DNA of 64,000 nt from Pseudofrankia inefficax (lineage in GTDB: Bacteria > Actinomycetota > Actinomycetes > Frankiales > Frankiaceae), in NCBI RefSeq assembly GCF_000166135.1, contig NC_014666.1:3348001-3412000 (forward strand), given 5' to 3'. The notes beneath the pieces are model-generated. The model had not been told where the DNA came from and ran no database searches. It saw nothing but the letters and a program-made list of their open reading frames with translations. Each line of letters opens with the position of its first letter. Positions within the stretch are counted from its first letter, which is position 1. This document shows positions 5,383-59,923 of the stretch, in pieces. The position numbers and the translations under genes are program-made.

Positions 5383-5470
5383 TGGCCTTGTCTACCGCGG
5401 ATGGGTGACAGAGCGGGGAATCGCCGCGGTGAGGCGAGGGTGACGGAGCCCGGCGGCGACCACCTGCGTG

Positions 5471-14074: not shown

Positions 14075-14116
14075 CAGATCTGCGCGGTCTCTTGCGGAAT
14101 CAAGTGAGGAGCTGAT

Positions 14117-23108: not shown

Positions 23109-23368
23109 GTCTGTCCTCCTTCGGCTTCCCTCGACGATGGGCGCCACCGGCCGGCGCCTCAAGGCGCCGATTAAGGCGATGTCCGCAATAGTTGTCCAGC
23201 GACACCGCGCTGTCCACCCCGGCGCCCAGGTCGGTCCGCATCCCCTCGGGTGGGCCGCCGTCGGCATCCCGCGGTCGGTCGAGGCCTGCGCCGGGGCCTA
23301 CGGCCCTCCTGCCAGGCCTGATACCGCAGGAGGAAGTCAGTGGTCGCCGCCGCGTCCGATCTTGAGGG

Positions 23369-25406: not shown

Positions 25407-26648
25407 ATGAGTGGGGACAAGGGCTTCCGGAACGACAAAGGCTTCCGGAACGACAAAGGCTTCCGGAACAAGGTGGCGATCGTCGGCGCGGCGACCGTGA
25501 AGTCCGTCCGTCACGCGGACAGCCCGGTGGGAAGCCTGGCTGTCCAGACCGCGGACCTGGCGATCAAGGACGCCGGGCTCACCCGTGGCGACATCGACGG
25601 CGTCGCCTGCGGCGTGAGCCTGCCGTCGTACGCGACCAAGGACAGGGTCACCAAACCGGGGTTCGACTTCGTCGACAGCGAGTTCCTCATCGAGCAGATG
25701 GATCTGGACCCCGTGTGGTCCCTGGACGACGGCTCGTTCCCCCCGGCGCTCGCGCACGCCGTGTTCGCTGTGGCCTCGGGGGCCGCGTCCTGCGTGCTGG
25801 TGAACCGGACGCTGCACAACCCGGTCGGTCGCTACAACACGATGCTGTCGCAGCAGGCCAGAGGCTGGGACCAGTTCACGGCTCCGTACGGATTCGTGGC
25901 CCCGTCGTCCGGTATCGCGATGCCGTTCATGGAGTACCAGCAGCGCTATGGCGCCACCCGCGAGCACATGGCGACCCTCGTCCTGCAGCAGCGCAAGAAC
26001 GTCCAGCGCATTCCGGACGCCTACTGGCACGGCCGCGAGCTGACCTTTGACGACTACATGTCCAGCCGCATGATCAGCGAGCCGATGTGCCTGTACGACA
26101 ACGACATCCCGGTCGACGGCGGCGGATCGTTCGTGGTGACGACGGCCGAGCGGGCGCGGGACCTGCCGCACAAGCCGGTCTACGTCACCTCCTGGGCGAA
26201 GATCCGCAATCCACCGACGTTCCTGCCGGGGACGCTGGGGCCGCTGGACGACTTCTACGACCGCGGGTTCGACCTGGCGGGCCGGCTGTGGGCCAACAGC
26301 GGCTGGCGAGCGTCGGACGTCGACGTCGTCCAGCTCTATGACGGGTTCACGCCGTTGGTGTGGTTCTGGCTGGAGGTCATGGGTTTCTGCCCGCAGGGGC
26401 AGGCGTGGAGCTTCATCCAGGACGGCCGGATCGACGCGGACGGGCCCTTCCCGCTCAACTCCGGCGGCGGCAACCAGGGCTGGGGCCGGGTCCACGGCGT
26501 ACCGCACGTGCTGGAGTGCTACCTGCAGCTGTCCGGCCGCGCGGGTGAGCGTCAGTCGGCCCGGGCCGAGACCGCGCTGTCGACGTACGCGACGCCCGCG
26601 CACGCGATCGGCGAGGCGTTGCTGTACAGCGCGGATCCCACCTCGTAG
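25407..26648 (+). CDS. Thiolase-like (lipid-transfer/Ltp2-type) protein with repeated N-terminus
   Basis: 413 residues from the ATG at 25407. Codons 4-21 are three copies of Asp-Lys-Gly-Phe-Arg-Asn from an 18-bp tandem repeat; the family core begins at VAIVGAATV, so GTG 25473 is an alternative start. The thiolase fold is evident, but the nucleophile region reads DDGSFPPALAHAVFAVASG with no Cys, and the GHP motif is replaced by GWGRVHG. The VQLYDGF Tyr is kept. This matches Ltp2-like retro-aldolases rather than thiolases. A close paralogue is at 55634. No DUF35 partner is adjacent. Confidence 0.88.
   Translation: MSGDKGFRNDKGFRNDKGFRNKVAIVGAATVKSVRHADSPVGSLAVQTADLAIKDAGLTRGDIDGVACGVSLPSYATKDRVTKPGFDFVDSEFLIEQMDLDPVWSLDDGSFPPALAHAVFAVASGAASCVLVNRTLHNPVGRYNTMLSQQARGWDQFTAPYGFVAPSSGIAMPFMEYQQRYGATREHMATLVLQQRKNVQRIPDAYWHGRELTFDDYMSSRMISEPMCLYDNDIPVDGGGSFVVTTAERARDLPHKPVYVTSWAKIRNPPTFLPGTLGPLDDFYDRGFDLAGRLWANSGWRASDVDVVQLYDGFTPLVWFWLEVMGFCPQGQAWSFIQDGRIDADGPFPLNSGGGNQGWGRVHGVPHVLECYLQLSGRAGERQSARAETALSTYATPAHAIGEALLYSADPTS
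25416..25469 (+). repeat. Three perfect 18-bp tandem repeats inside a coding region
   Basis: Units at 25416-25433, 25434-25451 and 25452-25469. The unit is GACAARGGCTTCCGGAAC; only the first differs, by G for A. Each encodes DKGFRN in frame, so copy-number change would not break the gene. Confidence 0.95.
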
Positions 26649-26694: not shown

Positions 26695-26760
26695 ATGACG
26701 GCCACCATTGCCGGCGGTCGCGGGGCGCCCGCCGGAGTCCGGACGAGGTGCTCGCGTTGA
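26695..26760 (+). CDS. 21-residue ORF coupled to the LLM gene
   Basis: ATG at 26695 with GAGAAGGAG about 10 bases upstream, a good ribosome site. It ends at TGA 26758-26760, which overlaps a TTG (26757) in frame with the LLM protein. It may be a leader peptide that loads ribosomes for the LLM gene, whose own GTG has no clear ribosome site. Too short to be sure. Confidence 0.3.
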   Translation: MTATIAGGRGAPAGVRTRCSR

Positions 26761-27776
26761 GGCTGCGGTTGGGGATTGGTCTTCCGCATTCCCGCGGCCT
26801 GCCAGCCGCGGTCGCGGCGGCGGTGGCCGCCGATCAGCTGGGCTACCACAGCGTCTGGGTGCCGGAGGCGTACGGCTCTGACGCGGTGACGGTGCTGGCC
26901 TACCTCGCGGCGCGGACCTCGACGATCGGCCTGGCGTCCGCCGTCCTGCAGATGCCGGCCCGGACGCCCGCGAACACGGCGATGACCGCGATGACGCTGG
27001 ACGAGCTCTCGGGCGGCCGGGCGATCCTCGGCCTGGGCGTCTCCGGCCCACGCGTCGTCGAGGGCTGGCATGGCGTGCCCTACCGCAAGCCGCTCGCGAT
27101 GACGCGTGAGTACGTCGAGATCGTCCGGCGGGCGATCCGGCGCACGGAACCGCTGACCTTCGACGGCGACCTGTTCCGGATCCCCGCCGACGAGCGATCC
27201 GAGCCGTTGATGTCGGCGATGCGCCCGCATCGACCCGAGGTACCGATCTATCTGGCCGCCAACGGGCCCCGCAACATCGGGCTCGCCGCCGAGATCGCGG
27301 ACGGCTGGCTGCCGACGCTGTACGCGCCGGAGTACGACGAGACGGTGGCGCCGGCGGTCGAGTCCGGCCTGGCCCGGCGAGATCCGGCCCGGTCCGCGCT
27401 GATGGTCGCCTGCGGGGTGCCGACGTTCATCGGTCCCGATGTCCAGCGTTGCCGCGATCTCGCCCGGCCCTACCTCGCGCTCTACATCGGCGGCATGGGC
27501 TCCCGCGAGCAGAACTTCTACAAGGACGTCGTCACCCGGTACGGCTACGGCGAGGCGGCCGCGCGGATTCAGGACCTCTACCTGTCGGGACGGGCCGTGG
27601 ACGCCGCCGCCGCGGTGCCTGACGACCTCGTCGACGTGCTCGCGCTGGTCGGACCAGCGGAGACCATCCGTGAGCGGCTGGCGATCTGGGACAGGTCCAG
27701 GGTGGACGTGCTGATCATCCGCAGCGTCGACGTGCGGGTGCTGGAGACGGTCCGGGAGCTGGCCGAACAGCTGTGA
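26748..27776 (+). CDS. LLM-class F420-dependent oxidoreductase
   Basis: 342 residues from GTG 26748 (TTG 26757 also possible). It is a luciferase-like TIM barrel: GIGLPHSRGLPAAVAAAVAA, LGYHSVWVPEAYGSDAVTVL, ARTSTIGLASAVLQMPARTP and the LSGGRAILGLGVSGP phrase are typical of F420-linked reductases such as those in actinobacterial catabolic clusters. Likely role: F420H2- or FMN-dependent reduction or oxidation of a CoA-bound or free intermediate. Same strand and 99 bases after the thiolase-like gene, so probably one operon with it and the amidohydrolase. Cofactor and substrate are inference. Confidence 0.88.
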   Translation: MLALRLRLGIGLPHSRGLPAAVAAAVAADQLGYHSVWVPEAYGSDAVTVLAYLAARTSTIGLASAVLQMPARTPANTAMTAMTLDELSGGRAILGLGVSGPRVVEGWHGVPYRKPLAMTREYVEIVRRAIRRTEPLTFDGDLFRIPADERSEPLMSAMRPHRPEVPIYLAANGPRNIGLAAEIADGWLPTLYAPEYDETVAPAVESGLARRDPARSALMVACGVPTFIGPDVQRCRDLARPYLALYIGGMGSREQNFYKDVVTRYGYGEAAARIQDLYLSGRAVDAAAAVPDDLVDVLALVGPAETIRERLAIWDRSRVDVLIIRSVDVRVLETVRELAEQL

Positions 27777-41256: not shown

Positions 41257-41590
41257 CGTCCGTCGCCCGCCGTCCGTCGCCCGCTTCGGTCCGTGTGACG
41301 AGCGACGCTAGCGCCACGGTCATAACTTGTACATGATGACTTAACTTGTGGGGCGCCAGTGGGGCCTGCTGGTGGGGGGTGCGCGGCCAACCGGGGTGGC
41401 GGCCTGCTGCTCGCTGGCAAGCACGGTAAGGCGGCCGCGGCCAGACGAGGCCCGACTGCCGGTGAGGTTCCGCCGACTGAACTCAAGTCTATGTCCTTAA
41501 CATGTGCGGGTGCGCGTGCCAGACTGCCGCCCGGGGCGGTGGTCGCGGCTGCCCGTCGTGTCCGTCGAGAGAGACGTCGAGGAGGGCCTG
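41257..41590. other. Divergent control region between SDR and crotonase genes
   Basis: 334 bases with no gene. It contains direct repeats TAACTTGT at 41323-41330 and 41342-41349 (19-base period) near the leftward SDR start, and ATGT-N5-ACAT at 41491-41503 toward the rightward crotonase. Both are operator candidates. Confidence 0.5.
41323..41349. promoter_or_regulatory. Direct repeats TAACTTGT, 19-base period
   Basis: Two exact 8-base copies, about 67 bases upstream of the leftward SDR start, in an AT-rich pocket. A period near two helical turns fits side-by-side protein dimers. Confidence 0.4.
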
Positions 41591-42508
41591 ATGCCAGGGG
41601 ACTTCATCAGCTACGAAACGCTCGAGGAAGGCCGCGTCGCGCGGATCATGCTCAACCGGCCCGAGGCTCGCAACGCCCAGAACCGCGGGCTGCTCGTCGA
41701 GCTGCACGAGGCGTTCCTGCGGGCCGAGGCCGACGACGAGGTCCGGGTGGTGATCCTCGGCGGCGTCGGGAAGATGTTCTCCTCCGGCCACGACATGGGT
41801 TCGCCGGTCGCCCGTCAGGAGCGTGCGCCGGGCCCGGGGCAGCACCCGACCCGGCGGATCAACGGTGGAACCCGCAAGGGCGCGGAGTCGCTGATGCTCC
41901 AGGAGTGGCACTACTTCTTCGAGAACACCCGCCGCTGGCGCAATCTTCGTAAGATCACGATCGCGCAGGTGCATGGCACGGTGTACGCGGCCGGGCTCAT
42001 GCTGATGTGGGCGTGCGACCTGATCGTCGCGGCCGAGGGCACCGAGTTCGCCGACGTGGTCGGTACCCGCCTGGGCATGTGCGGCGTCGAGTACTTCGCC
42101 CACCCGTGGGAGTTCGGCCCGCGCCGGGCCAAGGAGCTGCTGCTCACCGGCGACTCGCTGTCCGTCGACGAGGCGCACCAGATCGGCATGGTCAGCAAGG
42201 TGTTCCCGGCCGACGAGCTCGGCGGGCGCACGCTGGCCTACGCGCGTCGCATCGCCGAGCGGCCGACCGTCACGTCGCTGCTGATCAAGGAGTCCGTCAA
42301 CCAGTCCGTGGACAACATGGGCTTCTACAACGCGCTCAACGCCTGCTTCACCCTGCACGAGCTGAACCACTCCCACTGGGCCTGGGTCACGGAGGGGGAG
42401 TGGGCGGTCGGCACGCCCGAGCACGGCGTCCCGGCCTGGAAGGACGCGCCGCCCGTGCGTCCGCGGGAGAAGAACGCCTCCGGGGGCGAGCCGCCCCGGG
42501 CCGTCTGA
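41591..42508 (+). CDS. Enoyl-CoA hydratase/isomerase-like crotonase
   Basis: 305 residues from the ATG at 41591, with GAGGAGGG upstream. Crotonase fold with MLNRPEARNAQN, the oxyanion part KMFSSGHDMGSP and VHGTVYAAGLMLMWACDLIV. The first catalytic Glu place reads AAGLML, so the usual hydratase pair is not complete; a Glu occurs in GMCGVEYFAHPWE. It may be an isomerase, C-C hydrolase or a hydratase with changed chemistry. A 40-residue insertion near 85-115 (Pro/Gly-rich) is notable. First of a rightward group ending at 50548, though a separate promoter follows it. Confidence 0.88.
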   Translation: MPGDFISYETLEEGRVARIMLNRPEARNAQNRGLLVELHEAFLRAEADDEVRVVILGGVGKMFSSGHDMGSPVARQERAPGPGQHPTRRINGGTRKGAESLMLQEWHYFFENTRRWRNLRKITIAQVHGTVYAAGLMLMWACDLIVAAEGTEFADVVGTRLGMCGVEYFAHPWEFGPRRAKELLLTGDSLSVDEAHQIGMVSKVFPADELGGRTLAYARRIAERPTVTSLLIKESVNQSVDNMGFYNALNACFTLHELNHSHWAWVTEGEWAVGTPEHGVPAWKDAPPVRPREKNASGGEPPRAV

Positions 42509-44276: not shown

Positions 44277-45545
44277 ATGAACCTCGACGACCTTATCCTG
44301 GTGAGTGTTGACGATCATGTCATCGAGCCGCCCAATCTGTTCGAGGGCCGTCTGTCCGCGAAGTACCAGGACAAAGCGCCACGCCTGATCGAGCGCGCCG
44401 ACGGGGCGATGGCGTGGGTGTACGAGGGGATCGAGATCCCCAACGTCGCGCTGAACGCGGTCGCGGGGCGTCCCCGTGAGGAGCTCGGCTTCGAGCCGGC
44501 GAGCCTGGCCCAGCTGCGGCCCGGCTGCTACGACGTGCACTCCCGGGTCAGGGACATGGACGCGAACGGCGTGCTGGGCTCGATGTCCTTCCCGTCCTTC
44601 GTCCGGTTCTGCGGGCAGCTGTTCATGAACACGCCGGACCGCGAGCAGGCCGCGGCGATGGTCCGGGCGTACAACGACTGGCACATCGACGACTGGGCCG
44701 GCTCGTATCCGGGGCGCTTCATCCCGCTGGCGCTGCCGATGCTGTGGGACGCCGAGGCGACGGCGGCCGAGGTCCGCCGGGTGGCGGCGAAGGGGTGCCA
44801 CGCCCTCACGTTCTCCTCGAACCCCTTCGCGCTGGGTCTGCCGAGCATCCACACCGACTACTGGGACCCGGTCTGGAAGGCGTGCGTCGAGACCGGAACG
44901 GTGGTCTGCATGCACCTCGGCTCGTCGTCGCAGTCGCCCACGACGTCGCCGGACGCGCCGATCGAGGTGCTCTACTCGCTGTCGCCGATCAACCTGTTCG
45001 AGGCGGCCGCGGACGTGCTGTGGAGCCCGATGTTCCGGAAGTTCCCCGAGCTGCGGGTCGCCCTGTCGGAGGGGGGTACCGGCTGGGTGCCGTACTTCCT
45101 GGAGCGGGTCGACTACATCTACAACCACACCCGCCCCTGGACGAAGACCGACCTCGGCGGCCGGCTGCCCTCGGAGATCTTCAACGAGCACGTGATCTCG
45201 TGCTTCATCGACGACGCGGTCGGGATCGAGACCCGGGCGCACCTGAACATCGACAACGTCATGTGGGAGTGCGACTACCCCCATTCCGACACGACCTGGC
45301 CGCACTCGCCCGAGCTGGTGGACAAGCGGCTGGCCGGCGTGCCCGACGCGGACATCAACAAGATCACCCATCTGAACGCGATCCGCCATTTCCAGTACGA
45401 CCCCTTCGCGCACATCCCGCGGGAGCTCGCGACGGTCGGCGCCCTGCGCAGGCGCGCCGAGGGCTGGGACATCAGCCCGAAGCCCGCCGCGCAGCGGGCC
45501 GCCGAGTCGGCGGGCACCTGGCGGTCGCTGCTCAGCCGCGGGTGA
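44277..45545 (+). CDS. Amidohydrolase-2 family protein
   Basis: 422 residues. Metal motif Asp12-x-His14 (SVDDHVIEP), a mid-barrel His in CMHLGSS, catalytic Asp333 in CDYPHSD. Very close in plan to the protein at 23915: the same VDDH.(I/V)EP start, KYQDKAP, RPGCYDVH and GGRLPSEIF.EHV. Both likely act on the same substrate class, by hydrolytic C-C cleavage or decarboxylation. Here it is followed by CaiB, DUF35, thiolase-like, acyl-CoA dehydrogenase and SDR genes with tight junctions, so they form one operon. Confidence 0.92.
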   Translation: MNLDDLILVSVDDHVIEPPNLFEGRLSAKYQDKAPRLIERADGAMAWVYEGIEIPNVALNAVAGRPREELGFEPASLAQLRPGCYDVHSRVRDMDANGVLGSMSFPSFVRFCGQLFMNTPDREQAAAMVRAYNDWHIDDWAGSYPGRFIPLALPMLWDAEATAAEVRRVAAKGCHALTFSSNPFALGLPSIHTDYWDPVWKACVETGTVVCMHLGSSSQSPTTSPDAPIEVLYSLSPINLFEAAADVLWSPMFRKFPELRVALSEGGTGWVPYFLERVDYIYNHTRPWTKTDLGGRLPSEIFNEHVISCFIDDAVGIETRAHLNIDNVMWECDYPHSDTTWPHSPELVDKRLAGVPDADINKITHLNAIRHFQYDPFAHIPRELATVGALRRRAEGWDISPKPAAQRAAESAGTWRSLLSRG

Positions 45546-45580: not shown

Positions 45581-46786
45581 ATGGCGGGTGTGCTGGACGG
45601 CGTGCGCGTCGTGGAAGTGTCGATGTGGGCAATGGTTCCCGCCGCGGGCGCGGTGCTCGCCGAGTGGGGCGCCGACGTCGTCAAGATCGAGAGCCCGGAC
45701 GGCGACCCGGTGCGCGCCCTGGTGACGGCGGGAATCACGCCCGACGGGCCTCGCTACACCTGGGAGATGTGGAACCGGGGAAAGCGCGCCATGGCGCTCG
45801 ACCTGCGGCATCCCGACGCCCAGCGCATCGTCCACCAGCTGGTGGCCGAAGCGGACGTCTTCCTGACCAGCATCCTGCCGGCACAGCGGTCCGGACTCGG
45901 CATCGACGTCGCGTCGATCCGCGCCGCCAACCCGGCGATCATCTACGCCGCCGGTACGGGCCAGGGCTCACGTGGCCCGGACGCCGACAAGGGCGGCTAC
46001 GACGGGATCACCTTCTGGGCCCGCAGCGGAGCCGCGGCCGCGACGACGACGCCCGGGACGGACCCGGTGACCCTGCCGGCGGGCGCGTTCGGTGACGCGA
46101 CCAGCGGGCTCGTGCTGGCCGGCGGCGTCGCGGCGGCGCTGGCGAAGAAGGCCCGCACGGGCGAGGGCTCCATCGTCGAGGGCTCGCTGCTCGCGACCGC
46201 GATGTGGGCGATGCAGATGTCGATCACCGGGGCGGCGGCGGCCGGTCTGGACGAGATGCCGCGGACGTCACGGAACCGTCCCTTCAACGTGCTGGTCAAC
46301 TCGTATCCCACCGCGGACGGCCGCTGGGTCTCCCTGTGCATGCTGCAGGCCGACCGTTTCTGGCCCGGTTTCTGCGCCGCGATCGGCCGGGACGACCTGG
46401 CAGCCGACCCGCGGTTCGCCGACGCCAAGGCCCGGGCGGCGAACGCCGAGGCCTGCGTGGCGGAGCTGGACGCGACGTTCCTGGCCGAGCCGCTCGCGGT
46501 GTGGCGCGACCGGCTGGCGACGCAGGACGGCCAGTGGGACGTGCTGAACACCGTCTCCGAGGTGCTCCGGGACCCGCAGGTCCAGGCGAACCAGTTCGTG
46601 CACCGGGTGCGCTACGACGGCGGGCACGAGCTGTCCATCGTCGGCTCCCCGGTGCAGTTCGACGGGACCCCGCCGACGCTGCGCCCGGCGCCCGAGTTCG
46701 GGGCCGACACCGACGCGGTCCTGGAGTCGCTCGGGTGGGACACCGACGCCATTCTCGAAGCGAAGATCAAAGGGGCGGTCGTGTGA
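45581..46786 (+). CDS. CaiB/BaiF CoA-transferase
   Basis: 401 residues from the ATG at 45581 (GCGAGGGAG upstream). It starts GVRVVEVSMWAMVPAAGAVL. The catalytic Asp172 (GAFGDATSGLVLAGG) matches Asp169 of formyl-CoA transferase. The racemase GHD motif is absent (GGYDGITFW), so CoA transfer is more likely than racemisation. It is closely related to the protein at 54324 (same WAMVP/YGMVP opening and GDP(V/I)R block). It would activate an acid using another acyl-CoA as donor. Overlaps the DUF35 gene by four bases. Confidence 0.92.
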   Translation: MAGVLDGVRVVEVSMWAMVPAAGAVLAEWGADVVKIESPDGDPVRALVTAGITPDGPRYTWEMWNRGKRAMALDLRHPDAQRIVHQLVAEADVFLTSILPAQRSGLGIDVASIRAANPAIIYAAGTGQGSRGPDADKGGYDGITFWARSGAAAATTTPGTDPVTLPAGAFGDATSGLVLAGGVAAALAKKARTGEGSIVEGSLLATAMWAMQMSITGAAAAGLDEMPRTSRNRPFNVLVNSYPTADGRWVSLCMLQADRFWPGFCAAIGRDDLAADPRFADAKARAANAEACVAELDATFLAEPLAVWRDRLATQDGQWDVLNTVSEVLRDPQVQANQFVHRVRYDGGHELSIVGSPVQFDGTPPTLRPAPEFGADTDAVLESLGWDTDAILEAKIKGAVV

Positions 46787-47205
46787 GCGAGGAATCCCGG
46801 CCCGTTCCCGAGCCCGACGAGGTCTCGCGTTTCTACTGGGAGGGCGCGAGCGCCGGCCGGCTGCTGTTACAGCGGTGCGCGGGGTGCGCGCGGTTCCAGT
46901 TCCCGCCGGACATCGTCTGCGTGCACTGCCAGTGCGAGGACCTGGCGCCGACGGCGGTCAGCGGACGTGGCTCGCTGTATTCCTACACGGTCGTCGAACG
47001 AGGCTTTCACCAGCGTTTCGTCGACCACCTGCCTTACGTCGTCGGCCTCGTCGAGCTTGCGGAACAGGCCGGTCTGCGGATTCTCACCAACGTCGTCGGC
47101 GCGGACCTCGCGAAGCTGGCGGTGGGCATGCCGGTCGAGGTGACGTTCGAGCGGCGGGGCGACGTGGCGTTGCCGCAGTTCCGTCCCGCCGGGGAGGGCG
47201 GATGA
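46783..47205 (+). CDS. DUF35 OB-fold/zinc-ribbon protein, aldolase partner
   Basis: 140 residues from the GTG at 46783 (GTGA overlap with CaiB). An N-terminal helix is followed by a rubredoxin-like zinc ribbon, Cys32-x2-Cys35 and Cys46-x2-Cys49, then an OB fold (GRGSLYSYTVVERGFHQRFV). Such proteins bind and position acyl-CoA for thiolase-like partners; the best known case is the DUF35 part of ChsH2 with the aldolase Ltp2 in steroid side-chain breakdown. The following gene, overlapping by four bases, is just such a Cys-less thiolase-like protein. Confidence 0.92.
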   Translation: MSEESRPVPEPDEVSRFYWEGASAGRLLLQRCAGCARFQFPPDIVCVHCQCEDLAPTAVSGRGSLYSYTVVERGFHQRFVDHLPYVVGLVELAEQAGLRILTNVVGADLAKLAVGMPVEVTFERRGDVALPQFRPAGEGG

Positions 47206-48362
47206 GCGCGCTGTCCCGCGACGTCGCCATCGTCGGCGTCGGGTACTCGCCGCTGAGCCGGGACGGCGTGCCTCTTCCCCGCCGGCTCGCCCATGCGGCG
47301 GTCAGCGAGGCGCTCGCGGACGCCGGGCTCACCGGAGCGGCCGTCGACGGCATCTTCGAGTACAAGTTCGGGCCGGAGTCGCCCGGAGCCCAGGATGTCG
47401 CCCGGATGATCGGCGCGCCGAACCTCACGGCGTTCGCCGACATCATGCCGACGAATCCGTCCGGCCTGGCCGGTCCGCTCGCCGGCGTGATGGCCGTGGC
47501 GTCGGGTGTGTGCGAGACGGTGCTGGCGTTCCGCTGCCTCACCCGGGCCGCCGGCCACACCGGTGGCGTCCGCACCGGCCCGGACCGGATCGGGGGCGCC
47601 GACCAGTTCCTCACGCCGTACGGCTATCTCGGCGGCATTCTGATGAACATGGCGCTGGTCAAGCAGCGCTGGATGGCGCAGTACGGCCGCGGCGAGGAGG
47701 ATTTCGGCCGTATCGCGGTCAACGCCCGCCGCTGGTCGGCGCTCAACCCCCGCGCCGTGCTGCGTGACCCGATCTCGATGGACGACTACCTCGGGTCGCG
47801 GATGATCGCCGACCCGCTGCGGCTGCTCGACTGCGACTACCCGGTCAACGGGGCCGTCGCGACCGTCATCACCACCGCGGAGCGAGCCCGTGACCTGCGC
47901 CAACGGCCGGTGCTGATCGACTCGATGGCGTACGGCACCGGCCCCGAGGTGGACTGGATCTTCGGCGCGGACTACCTCTACGGCGGGACCATTCCGTGTG
48001 CGCGCCGCCTCTGGGAACGTTCCGCGTTCTGTCCGGCCGACATCGACGTGGCGCAGATCTACGACGGCTTCACCTCCGTCACGCTGCACTGGCTGGAGGC
48101 GCTCGGCTTCTGCGGTCTCGGTGAGTCCGGCGACTGGCTCGGGAACGGCGACCGGATCGGGCCCGGTGGCGAGCTGCCGATGAACACCGCGGGCGGGCAG
48201 CTGGCCGAGGGCCGGCTGCACGGCGTCAGCTTCCTGAACGAGGCGGTGCTTCAGCTGCGGGGGCAGTGCGACGCCCGGCAGGTGCCCGACGCCCGCGTCG
48301 CCCTCGTCGCCTCCGGCCTCTATCCGCAATGCGGCGCCATGGTGCTGACGGCCGAGTCGTGA
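47202..48362 (+). CDS. Thiolase-like Ltp2-type protein (retro-aldolase candidate)
   Basis: 386 residues from the ATG at 47202. Thiolase fold, but the nucleophile site reads TNPSGLAGPLAGVMAVASG with no Cys, and the GHP motif is replaced by EGRLHG. Tyr287 in QIYDGF is kept, as in Ltp2 aldolases, which use Tyr residues. With the coupled DUF35 protein it likely cleaves a beta-hydroxy acyl-CoA into a ketone or aldehyde plus a short acyl-CoA. It is more distant from the 25407 and 55634 proteins than those are from each other. A synthase direction or a pure lipid-transfer role cannot be ruled out. Confidence 0.9.
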   Translation: MSALSRDVAIVGVGYSPLSRDGVPLPRRLAHAAVSEALADAGLTGAAVDGIFEYKFGPESPGAQDVARMIGAPNLTAFADIMPTNPSGLAGPLAGVMAVASGVCETVLAFRCLTRAAGHTGGVRTGPDRIGGADQFLTPYGYLGGILMNMALVKQRWMAQYGRGEEDFGRIAVNARRWSALNPRAVLRDPISMDDYLGSRMIADPLRLLDCDYPVNGAVATVITTAERARDLRQRPVLIDSMAYGTGPEVDWIFGADYLYGGTIPCARRLWERSAFCPADIDVAQIYDGFTSVTLHWLEALGFCGLGESGDWLGNGDRIGPGGELPMNTAGGQLAEGRLHGVSFLNEAVLQLRGQCDARQVPDARVALVASGLYPQCGAMVLTAES

Positions 48363-48417: not shown

Positions 48418-49716
48418 GTGAGCTGGGAATTCGAGACCGACGCCGAGTTTCAGGCAAAGCTCGACTGGATCGAGACCTTCGTCCGCGAGGAGGTCGAGCC
48501 GCTGGATGTGCTCCACCCGCGTGACGTCTACAAACGGCCGATGGACCCCGACGTCGCCAAGGTCGTGCGCTCGCTGCAGCAGCGGGTCCGTGACCAGGAC
48601 CTGTGGGCCTGCCACCTCGGCCCCGACCTCGGCGGCCAGGGCTACGGGCAGCTGAAGCTCGCCCTGATGAACGAGATCCTCGGCCGGTCGCACTGGGCTG
48701 CGCTGGTCTTCGGGACGCAGGCGCCCGACACCGGGAACGCCGAGGTGCTCGCGCACTACGGCACCGCGGAGCAGAAGGAACGGTACCTGCGGCCGCTGCT
48801 GGACGGCGAGATCGTCTCCTGCTATTCGATGACCGAGCCGCAGGGTGGCTCGGACCCGGGCCAGTTCACCTGCGGCGCGGTGCGGGACGGCGACGACTGG
48901 GTCATCAACGGCTGGAAGTTCTTCTCCTCGCACGCGCGGTGGGCGGAGTTCCTGGTCGTCATGGTCCGCACCGATCCCGAGGCCAGCGTCCACAACGCCT
49001 TCTCGATGTTCCTGGTGCCGAGCGCGACGCCGGGTGTCCGGATCGAGCGGAACATCGGGCTGTACGGCGAGACCGAGGACGAGGGCGGTCACTCGCTCGT
49101 CCACTACGACAACGTGCGGGTGCCGGCGGAGAACCTCCTCGGCGAGCCGGGCCAGGGTTTCGCGGTGGCGCAGACCCGGCTGGGCGGCGGCCGGGTGCAT
49201 CACGCCATGCGGGCGGTCGGCGTGTGCCAGCGGGCGCTGGACATGATGTGCGAGCGGGTCCTCAGCCGCACGACCCGCGGCAGCCTGCTCGCCGACAAGC
49301 AGTACGTCCAGGGGTACGTCGCCGACTCGTGGGCGGAGCTCGCGCAGTTCCGGCTGCTGGTCCTGCGGACCGCCTGGAAGATCGACCGCTACAACGACTA
49401 CTCCCGGGTCCGGGAGGACATCGCGGCCGTCAAGATCCTGGCGCCGAGGCTGATCCAGGACATCGTCGGCCGGGCGATCCAGGTCCACGGGGCGCTGGGC
49501 ATCACCACCGAGCTGGATCTCGTCAGGATGTTCCTGATCCAGTTCGTCACCGGCTTCTCGGACGGCCCCTCGGAGATCCACAAGGCCACCCTGAGCCGCC
49601 GGGTGCTCAAGCAGTACAAGCCGGCGCCTGGCCTGTGGCCGACCCAGCACATCCCGACCCGGCGGGCCGAGGCGGCGGCTCACTTCGCGGAGCGGCTCAA
49701 GGAAGTCGACGGCTGA
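48418..49716 (+). CDS. Acyl-CoA dehydrogenase (ACAD11-like group)
   Basis: 432 residues from the GTG at 48418, with AGAGGAGA upstream. Flavin-region text MTEPQGGSDPGQFTCGAVRD and INGWKFFSSHARWAEFLVV; C-terminal FSDGPSEIHKATLSRRVLKQ. The DGPSEIHK ending is typical of the ACAD11/FadE group handling hydroxylated or cyclic acyl-CoAs. It lies downstream of the DUF35/aldolase pair and upstream of an SDR, suggesting that dehydrogenation precedes hydration and retro-aldol cleavage. No hydratase is adjacent, so a MaoC from elsewhere would be needed. Confidence 0.93.
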   Translation: MSWEFETDAEFQAKLDWIETFVREEVEPLDVLHPRDVYKRPMDPDVAKVVRSLQQRVRDQDLWACHLGPDLGGQGYGQLKLALMNEILGRSHWAALVFGTQAPDTGNAEVLAHYGTAEQKERYLRPLLDGEIVSCYSMTEPQGGSDPGQFTCGAVRDGDDWVINGWKFFSSHARWAEFLVVMVRTDPEASVHNAFSMFLVPSATPGVRIERNIGLYGETEDEGGHSLVHYDNVRVPAENLLGEPGQGFAVAQTRLGGGRVHHAMRAVGVCQRALDMMCERVLSRTTRGSLLADKQYVQGYVADSWAELAQFRLLVLRTAWKIDRYNDYSRVREDIAAVKILAPRLIQDIVGRAIQVHGALGITTELDLVRMFLIQFVTGFSDGPSEIHKATLSRRVLKQYKPAPGLWPTQHIPTRRAEAAAHFAERLKEVDG

Positions 49717-49744: not shown

Positions 49745-50548
49745 GTGCGCAGCCGCCTCGACCTGACCGGCCGGCCCACCCTGGTGGTCGGCGGTGGCGG
49801 AGCCGGGATCGGTTCCGCCGTCGCGGCCGCCGCGGCCGGCGCCGGCGCACCCGTCGCGGTGATCACGCACAACGCCGACCACGCCGAGGCGCTGCTCCGG
49901 CTGGTCAGGGCCGCTGGGGTCGCCGTCGCGGCGGCGGTGGCCGACGTCCTGGACGAGGGATCGCTGGTCGCCGCCATCGCCCGGCTCCAGGACGAGCTGG
50001 GCCCGATCAGGAACCTGGTCAACGTCGTGGGCGGCGCGGCGGGCGAGTACCACCGGCCCAGCGCGCAGCCGATCGACTCCTTCGACCGGGTGATGGAGCG
50101 CAACCTGCGGTACGTGCCGGTCTCCTGCCGGGAGGTCGGCGCGGCGCTGCTGGCCGCGGGGGAGACCGGCAGCATCGTCAACATCTCGTCCGGGGCCGCC
50201 CGCGGCGCCCCGCTGCTCGGCGCCTACGCGGCGGCGAAGGCCGGCCTGGAGGCGCTGACCCGGTCGATGGCGCTCGCCTGGGGCCCGCACGGCATCCGCG
50301 TCAACGCCGTCTCGCCCGGGACGACCCGTACCGGCGACCAGGAACGTGGCGAGGTCGCTCCTGGGATTCCGCTGCGCCGGCGTGGCGAGGCGAGCGAGGT
50401 CGCGGCCGCGGTGCTGTTTCTGCTCTCGGACCTTTCCAGCTACACCACTGGCCACATCCTCCCGGTGGACGGCGGCGCCGCGCTGGGTCATCCGGGCGGC
50501 GAGCAGCTGTCCGCCTTCGCCGGCCGCGACCGCCCCGCCGGACGGTAA
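49745..50548 (+). CDS. SDR-family oxidoreductase
   Basis: 267 residues from the GTG at 49745. The nucleotide motif is changed to VVGGGGAGIG (no TG). The NNAG place reads VNVVGG. The active block is NISSGAARGAPLLGAYAAAK, giving Ser, Tyr and Lys. It ends with ILPVDGG. Last gene of the 44277-50548 operon, followed by a perfect 14-bp hairpin. Likely oxidises a hydroxy intermediate or reduces a ketone released by the aldolase; substrate not identifiable. Confidence 0.92.
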   Translation: MRSRLDLTGRPTLVVGGGGAGIGSAVAAAAAGAGAPVAVITHNADHAEALLRLVRAAGVAVAAAVADVLDEGSLVAAIARLQDELGPIRNLVNVVGGAAGEYHRPSAQPIDSFDRVMERNLRYVPVSCREVGAALLAAGETGSIVNISSGAARGAPLLGAYAAAKAGLEALTRSMALAWGPHGIRVNAVSPGTTRTGDQERGEVAPGIPLRRRGEASEVAAAVLFLLSDLSSYTTGHILPVDGGAALGHPGGEQLSAFAGRDRPAGR

Positions 50549-52804: not shown

Positions 52805-54112
52805 TCAGATCACGACGAGCGGCTTGTGCACGTCGCCCCGTGGGAACAGGTCGCCGTCCGGCGGCGTGAGCAGAAGGTCGAGCGAGGGGCCGAAGCGGTC
52901 GGCGAGCGCCCGCAGGCGGTCGTGGTCGAAACCCCAGCGCGCGATCGCGTTGCCGCCCAGCAGCAGCCTCGCCTCGTCGGCGGGAACGCCCGCCGCGCCG
53001 AGGGTGGCGCGCAGGTACTCCGTCGTCCCGCCGGCGGCGAAGGTGCCCTCGTGGTGGGGATAGTCCATCCCCAGGCACATCGCGTCGAGCCCGATCTGGT
53101 GGCGCGCCTCGACCTCGGCCCGGGAGAAGATCGACGAACCGAGCCAGCACTGGCGCCGGAAGTACTCCGACGGCTCGCGGCGGACCACGTCGCGCACGGC
53201 CCGGCGCTGGTAGCTGCCCTGGTAGGAGTAGTCCATCGAGGCGAGGGCCGTGATGACCCAGGCCGAGCCCTGCTCGGTGAAGGCCACCCGCAGCCCCGGG
53301 TGCCGCTCCAGGATCCCGCTCCAGACGAGGTGGGTGAGCACCTCGTGGCAGCGGAAGACCATCTCCTTCGAGCACAGCGGCAGGGCGACGACGGGGTCGG
53401 GGATGCCCTGGTAGGCCGTGCGCGGTAACGAGGACGAGATCGCCACGTGCGAGTTCAGTGGCATCTCGAGCTCCTCGAGGAGGCTCCAGATCGGCTCGTG
53501 GCGCTCGTGGAAGATCGGCTGGTCCGCGCTGAACGTGGGCAGCAGCACCCCCCTGAGCCCCGACTCCCTCGCCCAGCGGATCTCGGCCAGCGCGGCCTCG
53601 ACGTCGTCGAACGACACGACCGCCATGCCGAGGAAGCGGTCAGGGGCGGCGGAGCAGAAGTCGACCAGCCAGCGGTTGTGGGCCCGGTTGCCCGCGTCGA
53701 TCTCCTCCCTCGTCCGGGCCGGCCACCGCGGTGCCTGCCGGCTGGCGCCCTGGCGCATGGTCTGGGACGGCGGGCCGAACGCCTCGAACGGCATCCCGAA
53801 GTCCGGGAACAGCACCTCGGCCACGATGCCCTCGCGCTCCAGCTCGGCCAGCCGGCGGACCGGGTCGGAGCAGCCCTCCAGCCGCCCCGGCTCGAAGACG
53901 TCGCGCACCCACTGCTCGACGACGTCGGGGTCCAGGCGGCCCCGCAGGTGCGCGGGATCCATCGGGGGTACGCCGTTGTCGTCGTAGAAGTCGCAGAAGG
54001 CGTCGAAGCGCTCGTGCAGCGCGGCGGTCAGGTACGGCCGGTACTGGCGCATCTTCGGCATGGCGTGGCCGTCGGACGAGACGACCAACGCACGCTCACT
54101 CGTGGTCACCAT
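52805..54112 (-). CDS. Amidohydrolase-2 family protein
   Basis: 435 residues. Metal motif Asp14-x-His16 (SSDGHAMPK); mid-barrel His in LNSHVAISS; catalytic Asp in GMDYPHHEGTF. It differs from the 23915/44277 pair (longer N-terminal part, no KYQDKAP block) and is nearer to the 58601 type by its DYPH(H/F)EGTF end. First gene of a leftward pair with the SDR. The upstream AT-rich gap carries ATTAA-N6-TTAAT. Expected hydrolysis or decarboxylation of a cyclic acid. Confidence 0.92.
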   Translation of the reverse strand: MVTTSERALVVSSDGHAMPKMRQYRPYLTAALHERFDAFCDFYDDNGVPPMDPAHLRGRLDPDVVEQWVRDVFEPGRLEGCSDPVRRLAELEREGIVAEVLFPDFGMPFEAFGPPSQTMRQGASRQAPRWPARTREEIDAGNRAHNRWLVDFCSAAPDRFLGMAVVSFDDVEAALAEIRWARESGLRGVLLPTFSADQPIFHERHEPIWSLLEELEMPLNSHVAISSSLPRTAYQGIPDPVVALPLCSKEMVFRCHEVLTHLVWSGILERHPGLRVAFTEQGSAWVITALASMDYSYQGSYQRRAVRDVVRREPSEYFRRQCWLGSSIFSRAEVEARHQIGLDAMCLGMDYPHHEGTFAAGGTTEYLRATLGAAGVPADEARLLLGGNAIARWGFDHDRLRALADRFGPSLDLLLTPPDGDLFPRGDVHKPLVVI

Positions 54113-55633: not shown

Positions 55634-56845
55634 CTACGCCGTCGGGTCGACGCTGTAGAGCAGCGCCGTGCCGATCGTGTGCGCCGGGTCGCCATACGTG
55701 GAGAGTCCGGTCTCGGTCCGCGCGAGCTGGCGCTCGCCCGCCCGTCGGGCCAGTTGGAGGTAGCACTCGAGGACCTGGGGCACGCCGTGCAGCCGTCCCC
55801 AGCCCGAGTTGCCGCCGCCGGAGTTGAGCGGGAACGGGCCGTCCGCGGCGATGCGGCCGTCCTGGACGAAGCTCCACGCCTCGCCCTGCGGGCAGAAACC
55901 GAGCACCTCCAGCCAGTACCAGGTCTCCATCGCGAACCCGTCGTACAGCTGGACGACGTCGACGTCCCGCGGGCTCCAGCCGCTGTTCGCCCACAGCCGC
56001 CGGGCGAGGTCGAAGCCGGGCTCGTAGTAGTCGTCGAGCGCGCCGAGCGTTCCGGGGACCATCCAGGCGCTTGGCCGCTGGCCTCGGATTCTTGCCCAGG
56101 ACGTGATGTAGACCGGCTTGTGGGGGAGATCCCTGGCCCGTTCCTCGGTCGTCACGATGAAGGAGGCGCCGCCGTCGACCGGGATGTCGTTGTCGAACAG
56201 GCAGAGCGGTTCGCTGATCATCCGGCTGGCCATGTACTCGTCGAAGGTCAGCTCACGGCCGAACCAGTAGGCCTCGGGGATCCGGAGCGCGTTCTTGCGG
56301 TTCTGGAGCACCTGGGTGGCCATGTGCTCGCGGCGCGCGCCGTACCGTCGCTGGTATTCGAGGTAGGACATCGCCATTCCCGAGATCCAGCCGACGAAGC
56401 CGTAGGGGGCGGTCCACTGCTGGCGGCCGGTGGCCGCCGTTCCGGCGAAGTTGTGGTAACGGCCCGCGGGATTGTGCACGGTGCGGTTCACCAGGACGGT
56501 GCTCGCGGCCCCGGCGGCGACCGCCTGGACGGCGCGGGCGAGCGCCGGCGGGAAGGAGCCGTCGTCGCGGGACCAGACCGGCTCCAGTCCCATGGTCTCG
56601 GTCAGGAAGTCGCTGTTGACGAAGTCGTAGCCGGGCCGCAGCACGCGGGCGGCCCCGTCGGCCGGCAGGCTGGTGCCGCAGGAGATGCCGTCGATGTCGC
56701 TTCTGGTCAGGCCGGCGTCGGCGATGGCGGCGTCCGACATGCCGACGGCCATGCTCCCGATCGGGACGTCCGAGTGCCGGACGCTCCTGCTCACCCCGAC
56801 GCCGACGATCGCGACCGCGTGGCGTCCCGCACTGTCAGCTGCCAT
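55634..56845 (-). CDS. Thiolase-like (lipid-transfer/Ltp2-type) protein
   Basis: 403 residues from the ATG at 56845 (CGAGGAGA upstream); in-frame starts further upstream are possible. Text: VAIVGVGVSRSVRHSD, then DDGSFPPALARAVQAVAAGA at the nucleophile site with no Cys; GWGRLHG replaces GHP; QLYDGF is kept. Strong similarity to the 25407 protein throughout (RSVRHSD/KSVRHAD, HMAT.VLQ.RKN, SSRMISEPL/M). Likely an aldolase-type enzyme needing a DUF35 partner from elsewhere (for example that at 46783). Confidence 0.88.
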   Translation of the reverse strand: MAADSAGRHAVAIVGVGVSRSVRHSDVPIGSMAVGMSDAAIADAGLTRSDIDGISCGTSLPADGAARVLRPGYDFVNSDFLTETMGLEPVWSRDDGSFPPALARAVQAVAAGAASTVLVNRTVHNPAGRYHNFAGTAATGRQQWTAPYGFVGWISGMAMSYLEYQRRYGARREHMATQVLQNRKNALRIPEAYWFGRELTFDEYMASRMISEPLCLFDNDIPVDGGASFIVTTEERARDLPHKPVYITSWARIRGQRPSAWMVPGTLGALDDYYEPGFDLARRLWANSGWSPRDVDVVQLYDGFAMETWYWLEVLGFCPQGEAWSFVQDGRIAADGPFPLNSGGGNSGWGRLHGVPQVLECYLQLARRAGERQLARTETGLSTYGDPAHTIGTALLYSVDPTA

Positions 56846-57133
56846 CTCTGCGTCTCCTCGCATCATGCGTCCGCGACGACCGCGCGCGGCATCCGTCGCC
56901 GGCCTGGGTGAGCGGGACGTCGAACCGGCCACCGAGCTTTTCTCGACCGGCGGCCGCCCCGCGCTCGTGGTCATCGTCTCGGCGAACGGATCGGGCCGCG
57001 CTGGTCTGCCTCAGTGCCGCCCTGCCGGCGGAACGGGTATGGGCCCCGGGGCAGGCGGCGGCGGCCGGCCGGCGGGTGGCACGCACCACAGTTCCGCCAC
57101 CCTAGCATGTAGTTAAGGTCTGTCGATTACACA

Positions 57134-57351: not shown

Positions 57352-57427
57352 GACATGGCCCCTCCGGTTGGCCACGTTGTGGGCGACGCCCGCGAACCTC
57401 CACACCACAATCATGATGGGGAGATCA

Positions 57428-58573
57428 ATGACCACGACCTCTACGGTGGCGCCCGCGGCCCAAGGCGTGCCTGAGCAGACTGGTCTCTTCGACGCCGACG
57501 GCCATGTGATGGAGGACGTCCCGGCCATCGTCTCCAAGCTCCCCGACAAATGGCGGGCCCCCCGTGAGCGGCTGCTGAAGAACGACCTCTCGCGCCTGCA
57601 CGGCATGTCCATCTTCCCGCCGCTGGGCTACCTGTCGACCATCCCGACGCCCGGTCGGTCCGCGCTCGGCAGGGGGCCCAAGGAGACGGGGATCGACCCG
57701 GCCTCCTGGGAGTTCTTCCTGGGCGAGGTGGGGATCGAGCGCACGGTGCTCTATCCGACACTGGGCCTGACGGTGGGCCGGCTGCGTGACGCGGAGTACG
57801 CCGTGGCGATCACGAGGGCGTACAACGACTGGATGGCGGAGACGTACATCCAGCACCCGTCCGGCAAGTTCCAGGCCGCCGCGCTCCTGCCGCTACAGAA
57901 GCCCGACGAGGCCGTCAGGGAACTGCGGCGGGTGGTCGAGGACCTGGGTTTCCGCGCCGCCGTGCTGCCCGCTCACGGCCTGCACAACCACCTCGGCAGC
58001 GAGATGTTCTTCCCGGTCTACGAGGCGGCGCAGGACCTCGACGTCGGCCTTTCCGTGCACGGCGGCATTCACGACGGCTTCGGCTTCGACGACTTCAACG
58101 TCTTCGCGGCCGTCCACGCGCTGGGCTTCCCGTTCGGTCTGCTGATCTCGCTCGGCGGCATGCTGTTCAACAATGTCTTCGAGCGTTTCCCGGGGCTGCG
58201 CGTGGCCTTCCTCGAGGGTGGCGCGGCGTGGATTCTCATGGCCGCCGAGCGTTTCTCCGAGTCGTTCGGTGCCACCCCGTCGCTGAACAGCGAGGCGTTG
58301 CACCTGCCCGAGGGCACCTCGGTGCGTGACTACCTCAGCGAGCTCATGAAGTCCGACCGCATCGTGATCGGCTGCGAGGGCGGCGAGCACCACCTGGTGA
58401 CCGCGATGGAGTACTTCGGCACCGCGCCGTTCATGTACTCCTCGGACTTCCCGCACGAGGTCAACGTGAAGTCCTGCCTGCACGAGCTCGAAGAACTCGA
58501 CGAGCTCCCGGTCGACGCCGCGTCCCGGGCGCTGCTGAGAGGCGGTACGGCTCGCAAGTTCTACAAGCTGTGA
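57428..58573 (+). CDS. Amidohydrolase-2 family protein
   Basis: 381 residues from the ATG at 57428 (GGGGAGA upstream). Metal motif Asp24-x-His26 (FDADGHVMED); mid-barrel His in VHGGIHDG; catalytic Asp in SSDFPHEVN. A distinct branch from the other four, shorter and with FPHEV for YPH. First gene of the last operon, followed 27 bases later by another amidohydrolase, so two related steps or two substrates are handled. Hydrolase or decarboxylase; substrate unknown. Confidence 0.92.
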   Translation: MTTTSTVAPAAQGVPEQTGLFDADGHVMEDVPAIVSKLPDKWRAPRERLLKNDLSRLHGMSIFPPLGYLSTIPTPGRSALGRGPKETGIDPASWEFFLGEVGIERTVLYPTLGLTVGRLRDAEYAVAITRAYNDWMAETYIQHPSGKFQAAALLPLQKPDEAVRELRRVVEDLGFRAAVLPAHGLHNHLGSEMFFPVYEAAQDLDVGLSVHGGIHDGFGFDDFNVFAAVHALGFPFGLLISLGGMLFNNVFERFPGLRVAFLEGGAAWILMAAERFSESFGATPSLNSEALHLPEGTSVRDYLSELMKSDRIVIGCEGGEHHLVTAMEYFGTAPFMYSSDFPHEVNVKSCLHELEELDELPVDAASRALLRGGTARKFYKL

Positions 58574-58600
58574 CCCTCGGATGGCATTGGGAGTAGCGCC

Positions 58601-59923
58601 ATGTCTGTGACGACGTCCGAACAGCCCGCCACCCAGAGCCCGACGACGCCCCTGATCGTCGTGTCGGCCGACACGCACATCGGCCCTCGGCTCGAACAGG
58701 AGCTGCGCCCGTACTGCCCGGCGCCGCTGCTCGACGAGTTCGACGAGTTCGCCGGCGCGCTGGCCCGCAAGCGGGAGGCGTCGAACAACCAGCTCGGCTT
58801 CGGCGGCATGACGCGTGGCGCGGACTGGAAGGTGAGCCGCCGCAACCTCGAGACCGAGGGCCACTTCAACATCGAGGCGCGGCTGCGGGACCTCGACGAC
58901 GACGGCGTCGCGGGCCAGGTCATCTTCCACGACAGCCAGAACGGCCAGCCGCTCCCGTTCGACCGCTCGTCGGTGTTCAACCGGGACGACATCGACTTCG
59001 ACCGGCTGAAGGTCGGCCAGCACATCTACAACCAGTGGCTGGCCGACCAGGTCCGCGTGCAGCCCGAGCGCCACGTCGGGCTGGCCTACGTCCCGATGTG
59101 GGACATCGACGCCGCCGTCAAGGAACTGCGGTGGGCGTCGTCGGTCGGCCTGCGCGGGGTCAACTTCCCGTATCCGCGGCCGTGGATGAAGTCGTACAAC
59201 TTCCCCGACTGGGAGCCGTTCTTCAGCGCGTGCGAGGAACTCGGCATGTCGCTGTGCCACCACGGCGGCGGCGCGCCGACGGCCACCGGCGGCCCGGGCA
59301 TGATGTCGATCGTCAAGCTCGAGGTCTCCAACATGAGCCGGATCTCGCCGCTGTCCCACCTCGTCTTCGGCGGCGTGTTCGAGCGTCACCCGAACCTGCG
59401 CCTCGTCCTGACCGAGTCGGTCGGGCCGTGGTGGCCGGCGGTGATGAAGGAGCTCGACAGCGTCTACATCCACGACGTCGCCGAGTACCCGGACATGAAG
59501 GACCGGGTGAAGAAGCTGCCGAGCGAGTACGCCGCGCGGCAGGTCTTCGTCGGCGCCAGCTTCCTGGCCCGTTTCGAGGTCGAGGACGCGATGGCGAACG
59601 GCTACCTCGGCAACATCATCTGGGGCTCGGACTACCCGCACTTCGAGGGGACGTTCCAGCACGGGATCGTCTCGCCCGAGGGCGACACCGCGACGCGTTC
59701 CGCGATGCGGTTCACCTTCGCCGGCCTCCCGGAACACGAGGTGGCCCAGTGCCTGGGTGAGAACGCCGTCCGCGCCTATGGCCTCGACGGTGCGGCACTG
59801 CGCAAGGTCGCCGCCCGGATCGACGCCCCGACCTACGCGAAGCTCAGCGTGCCGCTGTCCACGCTGCCGGACGAGCACGACCGGGGGCATCACGCCTACC
59901 GGACCTACGGGTTCTGGGCCTGA
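58601..59923 (+). CDS. Amidohydrolase-2 family protein
   Basis: 440 residues. Metal motif Asp24-x-His26 (SADTHIGPR); mid-barrel HHGGG (LCHHGGGAP); catalytic Asp in GSDYPHFEGTF. The ending (RTYGFWA) and the GTFQHGIVSPEGDTATRSAM phrase are distinctive. Second gene of the operon from 57428. Two amidohydrolases side by side may form a hetero-oligomer or act in sequence; the sequence cannot tell. Confidence 0.92.
   Translation: MSVTTSEQPATQSPTTPLIVVSADTHIGPRLEQELRPYCPAPLLDEFDEFAGALARKREASNNQLGFGGMTRGADWKVSRRNLETEGHFNIEARLRDLDDDGVAGQVIFHDSQNGQPLPFDRSSVFNRDDIDFDRLKVGQHIYNQWLADQVRVQPERHVGLAYVPMWDIDAAVKELRWASSVGLRGVNFPYPRPWMKSYNFPDWEPFFSACEELGMSLCHHGGGAPTATGGPGMMSIVKLEVSNMSRISPLSHLVFGGVFERHPNLRLVLTESVGPWWPAVMKELDSVYIHDVAEYPDMKDRVKKLPSEYAARQVFVGASFLARFEVEDAMANGYLGNIIWGSDYPHFEGTFQHGIVSPEGDTATRSAMRFTFAGLPEHEVAQCLGENAVRAYGLDGAALRKVAARIDAPTYAKLSVPLSTLPDEHDRGHHAYRTYGFWA

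Follow-up and report, generated by a model that had tools for sequence, protein, structure and literature searches.

Among the papers found, two active-site solutions have so far been worked out for thiolase-fold aldolases that depend on a DUF35 partner. In the Ltp2-ChsH2(DUF35) system of Thermomonospora curvata and the Mycobacterium igr operon (PDB entry 6ok1), Tyr294 of the T. curvata enzyme (TcLtp2) is the base, Tyr344 is the acid, and His296 lies in the oxyanion hole (PMC12329534). In the bile-acid aldolase Sal-Shy(DUF35) of Comamonas testosteroni (9myr), Tyr302 of CtSal is the base and Cys304 the acid, and Gln352 occupies the position matching Tyr344 (PMC12329534). A DUF35 and thiolase-like pair is also known outside steroid metabolism, namely IpfD/IpfE from the ibuprofen degradation pathway of Rhizorhabdus wittichii MPO218, which yields propionyl-coenzyme A (propionyl-CoA) from a substrate made by a ring dioxygenase (PMC9195938). 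In this study, we analyzed a gene pair at 46783-48362 of a 64,000-nucleotide stretch of the Pseudofrankia inefficax genome (contig NC_014666.1, positions 3,348,001 to 3,412,000; the window, whose numbering is used throughout), which encodes a DUF35 protein followed by a Cys-less thiolase-like protein. By sequence comparison, the pair appears to form part of a widespread branch of its own, as yet without a name, next to the steroid side-chain aldolases, and it probably breaks C–C bonds of a compound other than the known steroid substrates.

We refer to this branch as Arg-type, a subfamily defined here by the residues D212, P214, G289, W297 and R338 together with clade membership; the window protein has all five residues and falls within the clade. 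A sequence-only reading of the same DNA had stressed that the pair lies outside steroid loci. This agrees with its surroundings, where no ksh/hsa/igr-type genes were seen, but is not new in itself in view of IpfD/IpfE (PMC9195938). DUF35-linked cleavage by Cys-less thiolase-fold proteins outside steroids is already known, and what appears to be new is the Arg-type variant.

The gene pair and its active site

The pair and the codons discussed below are as follows.

46783-47205, plus strand: DUF35 protein (zinc ribbon C32-C35-C46-C49 and oligonucleotide/oligosaccharide-binding (OB) fold), 140 amino acids, GTG start
47202-48362, plus strand: Arg-type Cys-less thiolase-fold protein, proposed retro-aldolase subunit, 386 amino acids, ATG at 47202 and stop at 48360-48362
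48060-48068, plus strand: codons of Y287-D288-G289; in the alignments Y287 corresponds to TcLtp2 Tyr294, and Gly replaces TcLtp2 His296 and CtSal Cys304
48213-48215, plus strand: codon of R338, in register with the TcLtp2 acid Tyr344 (CtSal Gln352) and invariant in 52 Arg-type proteins

The two genes share the ATGA at 47202-47205, a 4 bp overlap, and the preceding CoA-transferase gene (45623-46786) likewise shares 4 bp with the start of the DUF35 gene. Their pairing is not due to chance, as both are kept in the orthologs (72-98% identity for the thiolase-like protein and 53-96% for DUF35); a promoter and terminator scan gave no signal above chance. The DUF35 product scores above the cut-offs of Pfam zf-ChsH2 (42 bits) and OB_ChsH2_C (72 bits), its closest sequence match in the PDB is the DUF35 part of ChsH2 (6ok1_B, 84 bits), and C32, C35, C46 and C49 are invariant in 14 aligned DUF35 sequences, from the window and 13 ortholog loci.

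The thiolase-like product matches Pfam Thiolase_C_1, and its closest solved structure by sequence is TcLtp2 (6ok1_A, 183 bits). Its AlphaFold2 model (predicted local distance difference test score 89.3, predicted template modeling score 0.92) also has 6ok1 as its best fold match (Foldseek E 8e-37; VIA Z 50.7, root-mean-square deviation 2.3 over 372 residues), and the PhlC acylase and the BbsB thiolase appear in the sequence or fold match lists. However, the top NCBIfam model, the ‘lipid-transfer protein’ model PRK07855, which we take to be the Ltp2 model, gives 287 bits against a cut-off of 469, whereas two other genes elsewhere in the same 8.8 Mb genome, the true Ltp2s, pass this cut-off. On this ground, together with the active-site residues and the clade, identity as Ltp2 proper was rejected.

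Cys residues of the thiolase-like protein occur only at positions 104, 112, 211, 266, 277, 304, 356 and 377. As there is none before residue 104, the protein has no nucleophile Cys, however the poorly aligned loop is placed, and N85 occupies the column of the thiolase nucleophile in the alignment. A Cys nucleophile in register, the counter-evidence named beforehand, was sought by alignment and none was found; the 52 Arg-type relatives have none at this position either, and no Cys is invariant anywhere in the clade, which excludes covalent thiolysis and identity as a true thiolase. C377 (in QCGA), considered as a thiolase-type second Cys, is not conserved across the Arg-type clade. The sites of the thiolase catalytic His motifs (GHP and HDCF) carry GRLHG and YDGF, and R338 belongs to the GRLHG site. 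On all these descriptive points the sequence-only reading was borne out: the missing nucleophile, the loss of GHP to GRLHG, the retention of Tyr287 in QIYDGF, the four-base overlap, the intact zinc ribbon, and the Ltp2-like fold with a DUF35 partner, for which 6ok1 is the top match of both proteins.

The likeness to the known aldolases therefore extends to the Cys-less thiolase fold, the DUF35 zinc-ribbon/OB partner and the base, since Y287 corresponds to Tyr294 of Ltp2 and Tyr302 of Sal; the base Tyr is present in 52 of 52 Arg-type proteins. It is also the only Ltp2 catalytic residue that the window protein keeps. Arg338 stands in place of Tyr344 of Ltp2 and Gln352 of Sal, Gly289 in place of His296 of Ltp2 and of the Sal acid Cys304 in its YDC(Y/F) motif, and all five class-specific residues differ from Ltp2, so the chemistry is not simply transferable from that enzyme. 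The proposal of a retro-aldolase complex like Ltp2-DUF35 thus stands as far as the Cys-less, Ltp2-like fold, the DUF35 partner and the distinction from the two Ltp2s of the genome are concerned, but it did not foresee that the acid and oxyanion residues are replaced. IpfD differs as well, being Tyr-type (YDAF ... GFYLQG), and the four zinc Cys residues, all present in the window DUF35 protein, are absent from IpfE in the translation shown.

The Arg-type clade and its DUF35 partners

The two replacements go together across the family. Among 182 aligned homologs, 52 combine Gly at site 296/304 with Arg at site 344, none has Arg without Gly, one has Gly without Arg, and 129 have neither; the collection scan was queried with peptides that include VAQIY, a bias that affects this motif and leaves the Gly/Arg coupling untouched. 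In a tree of 84 representatives built with the Gly and Arg columns masked, the 25 Arg-type proteins group with the single Gly/Gly protein on one branch (Shimodaira–Hasegawa-like approximate likelihood-ratio support 97), and D212, P214, G289, W297 and R338 are present in 100% of the 25 Arg-type but 0% of the 47 Tyr-type representatives. The signature also recurs, in a small out-of-sample test, in all four plasmid homologs not used to find it, from Massilia (a betaproteobacterium), two Rhodococcus and Mycobacterium intracellulare. Clade members are 34-45% identical to the window protein, and Y287, R338, D212 and G289 are invariant. At least eight Arg-type proteins, including all three from the window as well as paralogs, were scanned with NCBIfam; none reached a curated cut-off, and the mycobacterial ‘lipid-transfer’ families PRK06059 and PRK07937 were rejected as the home of the clade, as their motifs differ (YDLS...E with the Cys kept, and YVPF...P, respectively). 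No description of the class was found in the open literature available here.

Neighborhoods were counted for 43 Arg-type genes, with a flank of at least 4 kb on each side, and 65 Tyr-type genes; these counts pool related, phylogenetically non-independent loci, and p values are descriptive only. Of the 43 Arg-type genes, 41 have a DUF35 gene no more than 500 bp away. In 14 of 52 Arg-type cases, including four paralogs in the window genome, the DUF35 and thiolase-fold domains occupy one open frame, with DUF35 first, and RefSeq annotates such fusions as single proteins of 537-551 residues in two Rhodococcus plasmids. In contrast, the DUF35 domain of the Ltp2 system is fused to a MaoC hydratase, whereas that of the Arg-type is free or fused to the thiolase-fold subunit itself. 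The natural fusions and the adjacency across the clade are the strongest, though indirect, indication that the two proteins act as one complex, and the window genes show what is general to DUF35-dependent complexes, a thiolase-fold subunit encoded with a zinc-ribbon/OB protein. On this comparative evidence, we infer that the two window proteins probably form a complex.

The window genome has 12 Arg-type genes among 23 Ltp-like thiolase-fold relatives, and two of the Arg-type genes, in addition to the pair, lie in the window; the sequence-only reading mentions neither these nor the TIM-barrel gene conserved beside the pair.

25407-26648, plus strand: second Arg-type gene (Ltp-B), no DUF35 beside it; a DitZ-like triosephosphate isomerase (TIM) barrel gene, 23915-25249, lies just upstream (TIM-barrel distance 277 bp)
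55634-56974, minus strand: third Arg-type gene (Ltp-C), likewise with no adjacent DUF35 gene; nearby are TIM-barrel genes at 52805-54112 (minus strand) and 57368-59923 (plus strand) (TIM-barrel distance 642 bp)

The TIM-barrel genes around Ltp-C are three further members of PF04909 (52805-54112, minus strand; 57368-58573 and 58601-59923, plus strand), the first of which is closer to PtmU3 than to DitZ. Adjoining Ltp-B is a gene for a luciferase-like monooxygenase (LLM) F420-dependent oxidoreductase (26748-27776, plus strand) above the cut-off of TIGR03559 (Rv3520c-type). This family is named after a cholesterol-cluster protein, and its presence 20 kb from the pair qualifies the earlier statement that no other sterol genes are here, which is otherwise in line with the lack of ksh/hsa/igr-type genes seen around the pair. 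In the same part of the window, an S-(hydroxymethyl)mycothiol dehydrogenase (22026-23267, minus strand; TIGR03451, 685 bits) suggests formaldehyde detoxification in a catabolic region. With 73 PF04909 and 23 Ltp-like thiolase-fold genes, this single 8.8 Mb genome holds a large set of uncharacterized acyl-CoA catabolic clusters.

Neighboring genes and orthologous loci

The pair lies within a run of genes on the plus strand.

41504-42508, plus strand: enoyl-CoA hydratase/crotonase, first of the gene run, start codon uncertain (PRK08290, 387 bits, above cut-off)
44277-45545, plus strand: PF04909 TIM-barrel protein, DitZ/PtmU3-like, proposed acyl-CoA hydroxylase (DitZ 8uyr, 359 bits; PtmU3 6omp, 144 bits)
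45623-46786, plus strand: family III (CaiB/BaiF) CoA-transferase, probably for substrate activation (Pfam CoA_transf_3, 299 bits)
48418-49716, plus strand: ACAD10/11-type acyl-CoA dehydrogenase (ACAD) (about 252 bits to ACAD11 and a related putative ACAD, the best PDB matches, against 151 to ordinary ACADs)
49745-50548, plus strand: short-chain dehydrogenase/reductase, end of the putative operon, after a gap of 28 bp from the ACAD gene

The TIM-barrel protein 44277-45545 is a conserved neighbor of the pair and a homolog of PtmU3 and DitZ. Its scores against these two are far above those of decarboxylases and hydrolases among the PDB sequence matches, which makes a simple hydrolase or an ACMSD-type decarboxylase less likely, and its metal-ligand motifs are retained, as judged by eye, in the alignment. 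PtmU3, from platensimycin/platencin biosynthesis, is a nonheme diiron monooxygenase that hydroxylates a diterpenoid-CoA (6omp). The genomic context is different here, as no terpene synthase genes were seen. Hydroxylation by PtmU3 reportedly prepares ring-A cleavage; literature searches on DitZ or on the enzyme that breaks ring A in platensimycin biosynthesis yielded nothing usable.

The collection scan recovered orthologs of the thiolase-like protein, at 72-98% identity, from Frankia, Pseudofrankia, Mycobacterium, Mycolicibacterium, Nocardia, Amycolatopsis and two metagenome-assembled genomes, after which the next match drops sharply to 41%. All 13 ortholog loci, two of which end at a contig end, retain DUF35 together with a counterpart of the PF04909 gene 44277-45545, the latter at 68-73% identity in 12 loci and at 98-99% in the near-identical locus of Frankia sp. 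AgB1.9. A DitZ-like gene also adjoins the Massilia Arg-type gene, and another lies near a 58% homolog on a plasmid of Rhodococcus sp. YL-1, where it is split over two frames (13896-15041 of locus L247) with no listed gene, either as a broken gene or through a sequencing error. More widely, a TIM-barrel gene is found within 2 kb at 16 of 43 Arg-type but 4 of 65 Tyr-type loci, whereas a ChsH-type MaoC gene lies within 500 bp at none of the 43 Arg-type but 18 of the 65 Tyr-type loci, and there is no ChsH-type MaoC hydratase within 7 kb of the window pair. Given the relatedness of the loci and the abundance of PF04909, these counts support an association but do not prove a shared reaction.

Homologs of the ACAD (about 60% identity) occur in five ortholog loci beside kinases of the aminoglycoside phosphotransferase (APH) family, and APH kinases near the orthologs (e.g., 5225-6358 of locus L042) resemble the kinase domain of ACAD11. 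The pairing of an ACAD11-type kinase and ACAD is known to process 4-hydroxyacyl-CoAs (PMC11342911), as in ACAD10/11 and the LvaA/LvaC system, a kinase with a phosphate-eliminating ACAD (PMC11342911, PMC12440821), and the window ACAD and the ortholog-side kinases match the two domains of ACAD11 best or among the best. This combination suggests that hydroxylated acyl-CoAs run through the pathway. In the window the nearest APH gene is 11 kb away. The crotonase gene is not conserved with the pair, having, outside the AgB1.9 locus, only one partial match of 44% (L045) among the ortholog loci. Conservation next to the pair also extends, in several loci of mycobacteria and Nocardia, to a double GntR/FCD regulator with two GntR domains in one protein (e.g., 5217-6812 of L045); it is a candidate sensor of the pathway and hence a handle on the substrate.

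Proposed reaction and its alternatives

Our preferred reading, to which we give a probability of about one half, is that the pair cleaves a β-hydroxyacyl-CoA as a retro-aldolase, with Tyr287 as the base, Arg338 at the Tyr344 site, and a hydroxyl group that is introduced more probably by the DitZ/PtmU3-like oxygenase. Two thiolase-fold subunits would be flanked by two DUF35 subunits in an αββα complex and would cut the Cα–Cβ bond of the substrate by retro-aldol chemistry, giving an aldehyde or a ketone together with acetyl- or propionyl-CoA. Tyr287 would remove the proton of the β-hydroxyl, while Arg338, in place of the Ltp2 acid, would steady the thioester enolate and help to protonate it, with Gly289 freeing space. 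The TIM-barrel protein would act on the CoA ester and is a more probable source of the hydroxyl than a MaoC hydratase; an oxygenase-made β-hydroxyl would be in keeping with a substrate acid whose branches or rings put it beyond ordinary β-oxidation. Gene structure, fold family, residue identities, the clade, the fusions and the conserved neighborhood are observed, whereas complex formation by this pair, the reaction, the role of Arg338 and the order of steps are inferred from them. An ibuprofen-type pathway was rejected, as no ring dioxygenase was seen near the pair and IpfD is Tyr-type.

Several points weigh against this retro-aldolase reading. Both known acids, Tyr344 and Cys304, are gone, and because Arg serves poorly as a general acid, the protein may catalyze a different reaction. 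With fold and DUF35 complex unchanged, the pair may instead carry out other C–C chemistry, such as CoA-dependent retro-Claisen cleavage, decarboxylation or DUF35-linked acyl transfer, with Arg338 binding a substrate carboxylate or oxyanion. This is a serious rival, if on balance an unlikely one: the invariant Arg and D212, an additional Asp of the conserved core that is likewise invariant, are compatible with anion binding, and the related PhlC and BbsB, both in the match lists, use DUF35-type partners. However, PhlC-type and BbsB-type enzymes are cysteine thiolases, so the lack of a conserved Cys in the Arg-type clade counts against such chemistry, and the aldolase base Tyr is invariant. The source of the hydroxyl group is also open to challenge. 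The TIM-barrel association is partial, with DUF35-fused Arg-type proteins often lacking a nearby TIM barrel, and the loci are not phylogenetically independent; the ACAD10/11-type neighbor points to γ-hydroxyacyl-CoA chemistry, which is a loose fit only; and the enoyl-CoA hydratase in the same gene run could supply the β-hydroxyl. It is possible, though somewhat doubtful, that the pair is a retro-aldolase that receives its β-hydroxyacyl-CoA from this crotonase or from an ACAD10/11-type module, the TIM barrel serving some other step as a hydrolase, a decarboxylase or an upstream hydroxylation enzyme. The ACAD11-like protein is encoded directly downstream of the pair, and PF04909, with its 73 copies in the genome, includes decarboxylases and hydrolases. 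On the other hand, the crotonase is not kept in the orthologs, whereas the TIM barrel is kept in all at 68% or more, and the best matches of the latter are by far DitZ and PtmU3.

Two further explanations seem much less probable. The loss of the thiolase Cys and of both aldolase acids might mean that the thiolase-like protein has no catalytic activity and plays a structural part in an acyl-CoA complex of several enzymes, but this is improbable in view of the invariance of Y287, R338, D212 and G289 in so divergent a clade, and an exact five-residue signature is rarely held by pseudo-enzymes. It is more improbable still that the protein works as a normal steroid side-chain aldolase of the Ltp2 type, acting on 17-hydroxy-pregnene-carboxyl-CoA by the Tyr/Tyr mechanism of Ltp2. 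Although Ltp2 is the closest characterized relative by sequence and fold, the PRK07855 score stays below the cut-off that two other genes in this genome exceed, Tyr344 and His296 are absent, and the clade is separate; the Ltp2 operon has ChsH1/ChsH2, whereas no MaoC of this type and no igr-like neighbors adjoin the window pair.

Tentatively, the Arg-type may represent a third catalytic class of thiolase-fold aldolases beside Ltp2 and Sal, one that would use a Tyr base with an Arg as oxyanion holder or acid. Part of the class might act after a diiron TIM-barrel acyl-CoA hydroxylase in an oxygen-dependent module of hydroxylation followed by retro-aldol cleavage, taking short acyl-CoA units off branched or cyclic acids beyond the reach of β-oxidation. 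If true, such a class would account for many genes now annotated as ‘lipid-transfer protein’, ‘acetyl-CoA acetyltransferase’ or ‘OB-fold domain-containing protein’, and it would give access to uncharted catabolic routes and to new biocatalysts for C–C cleavage.

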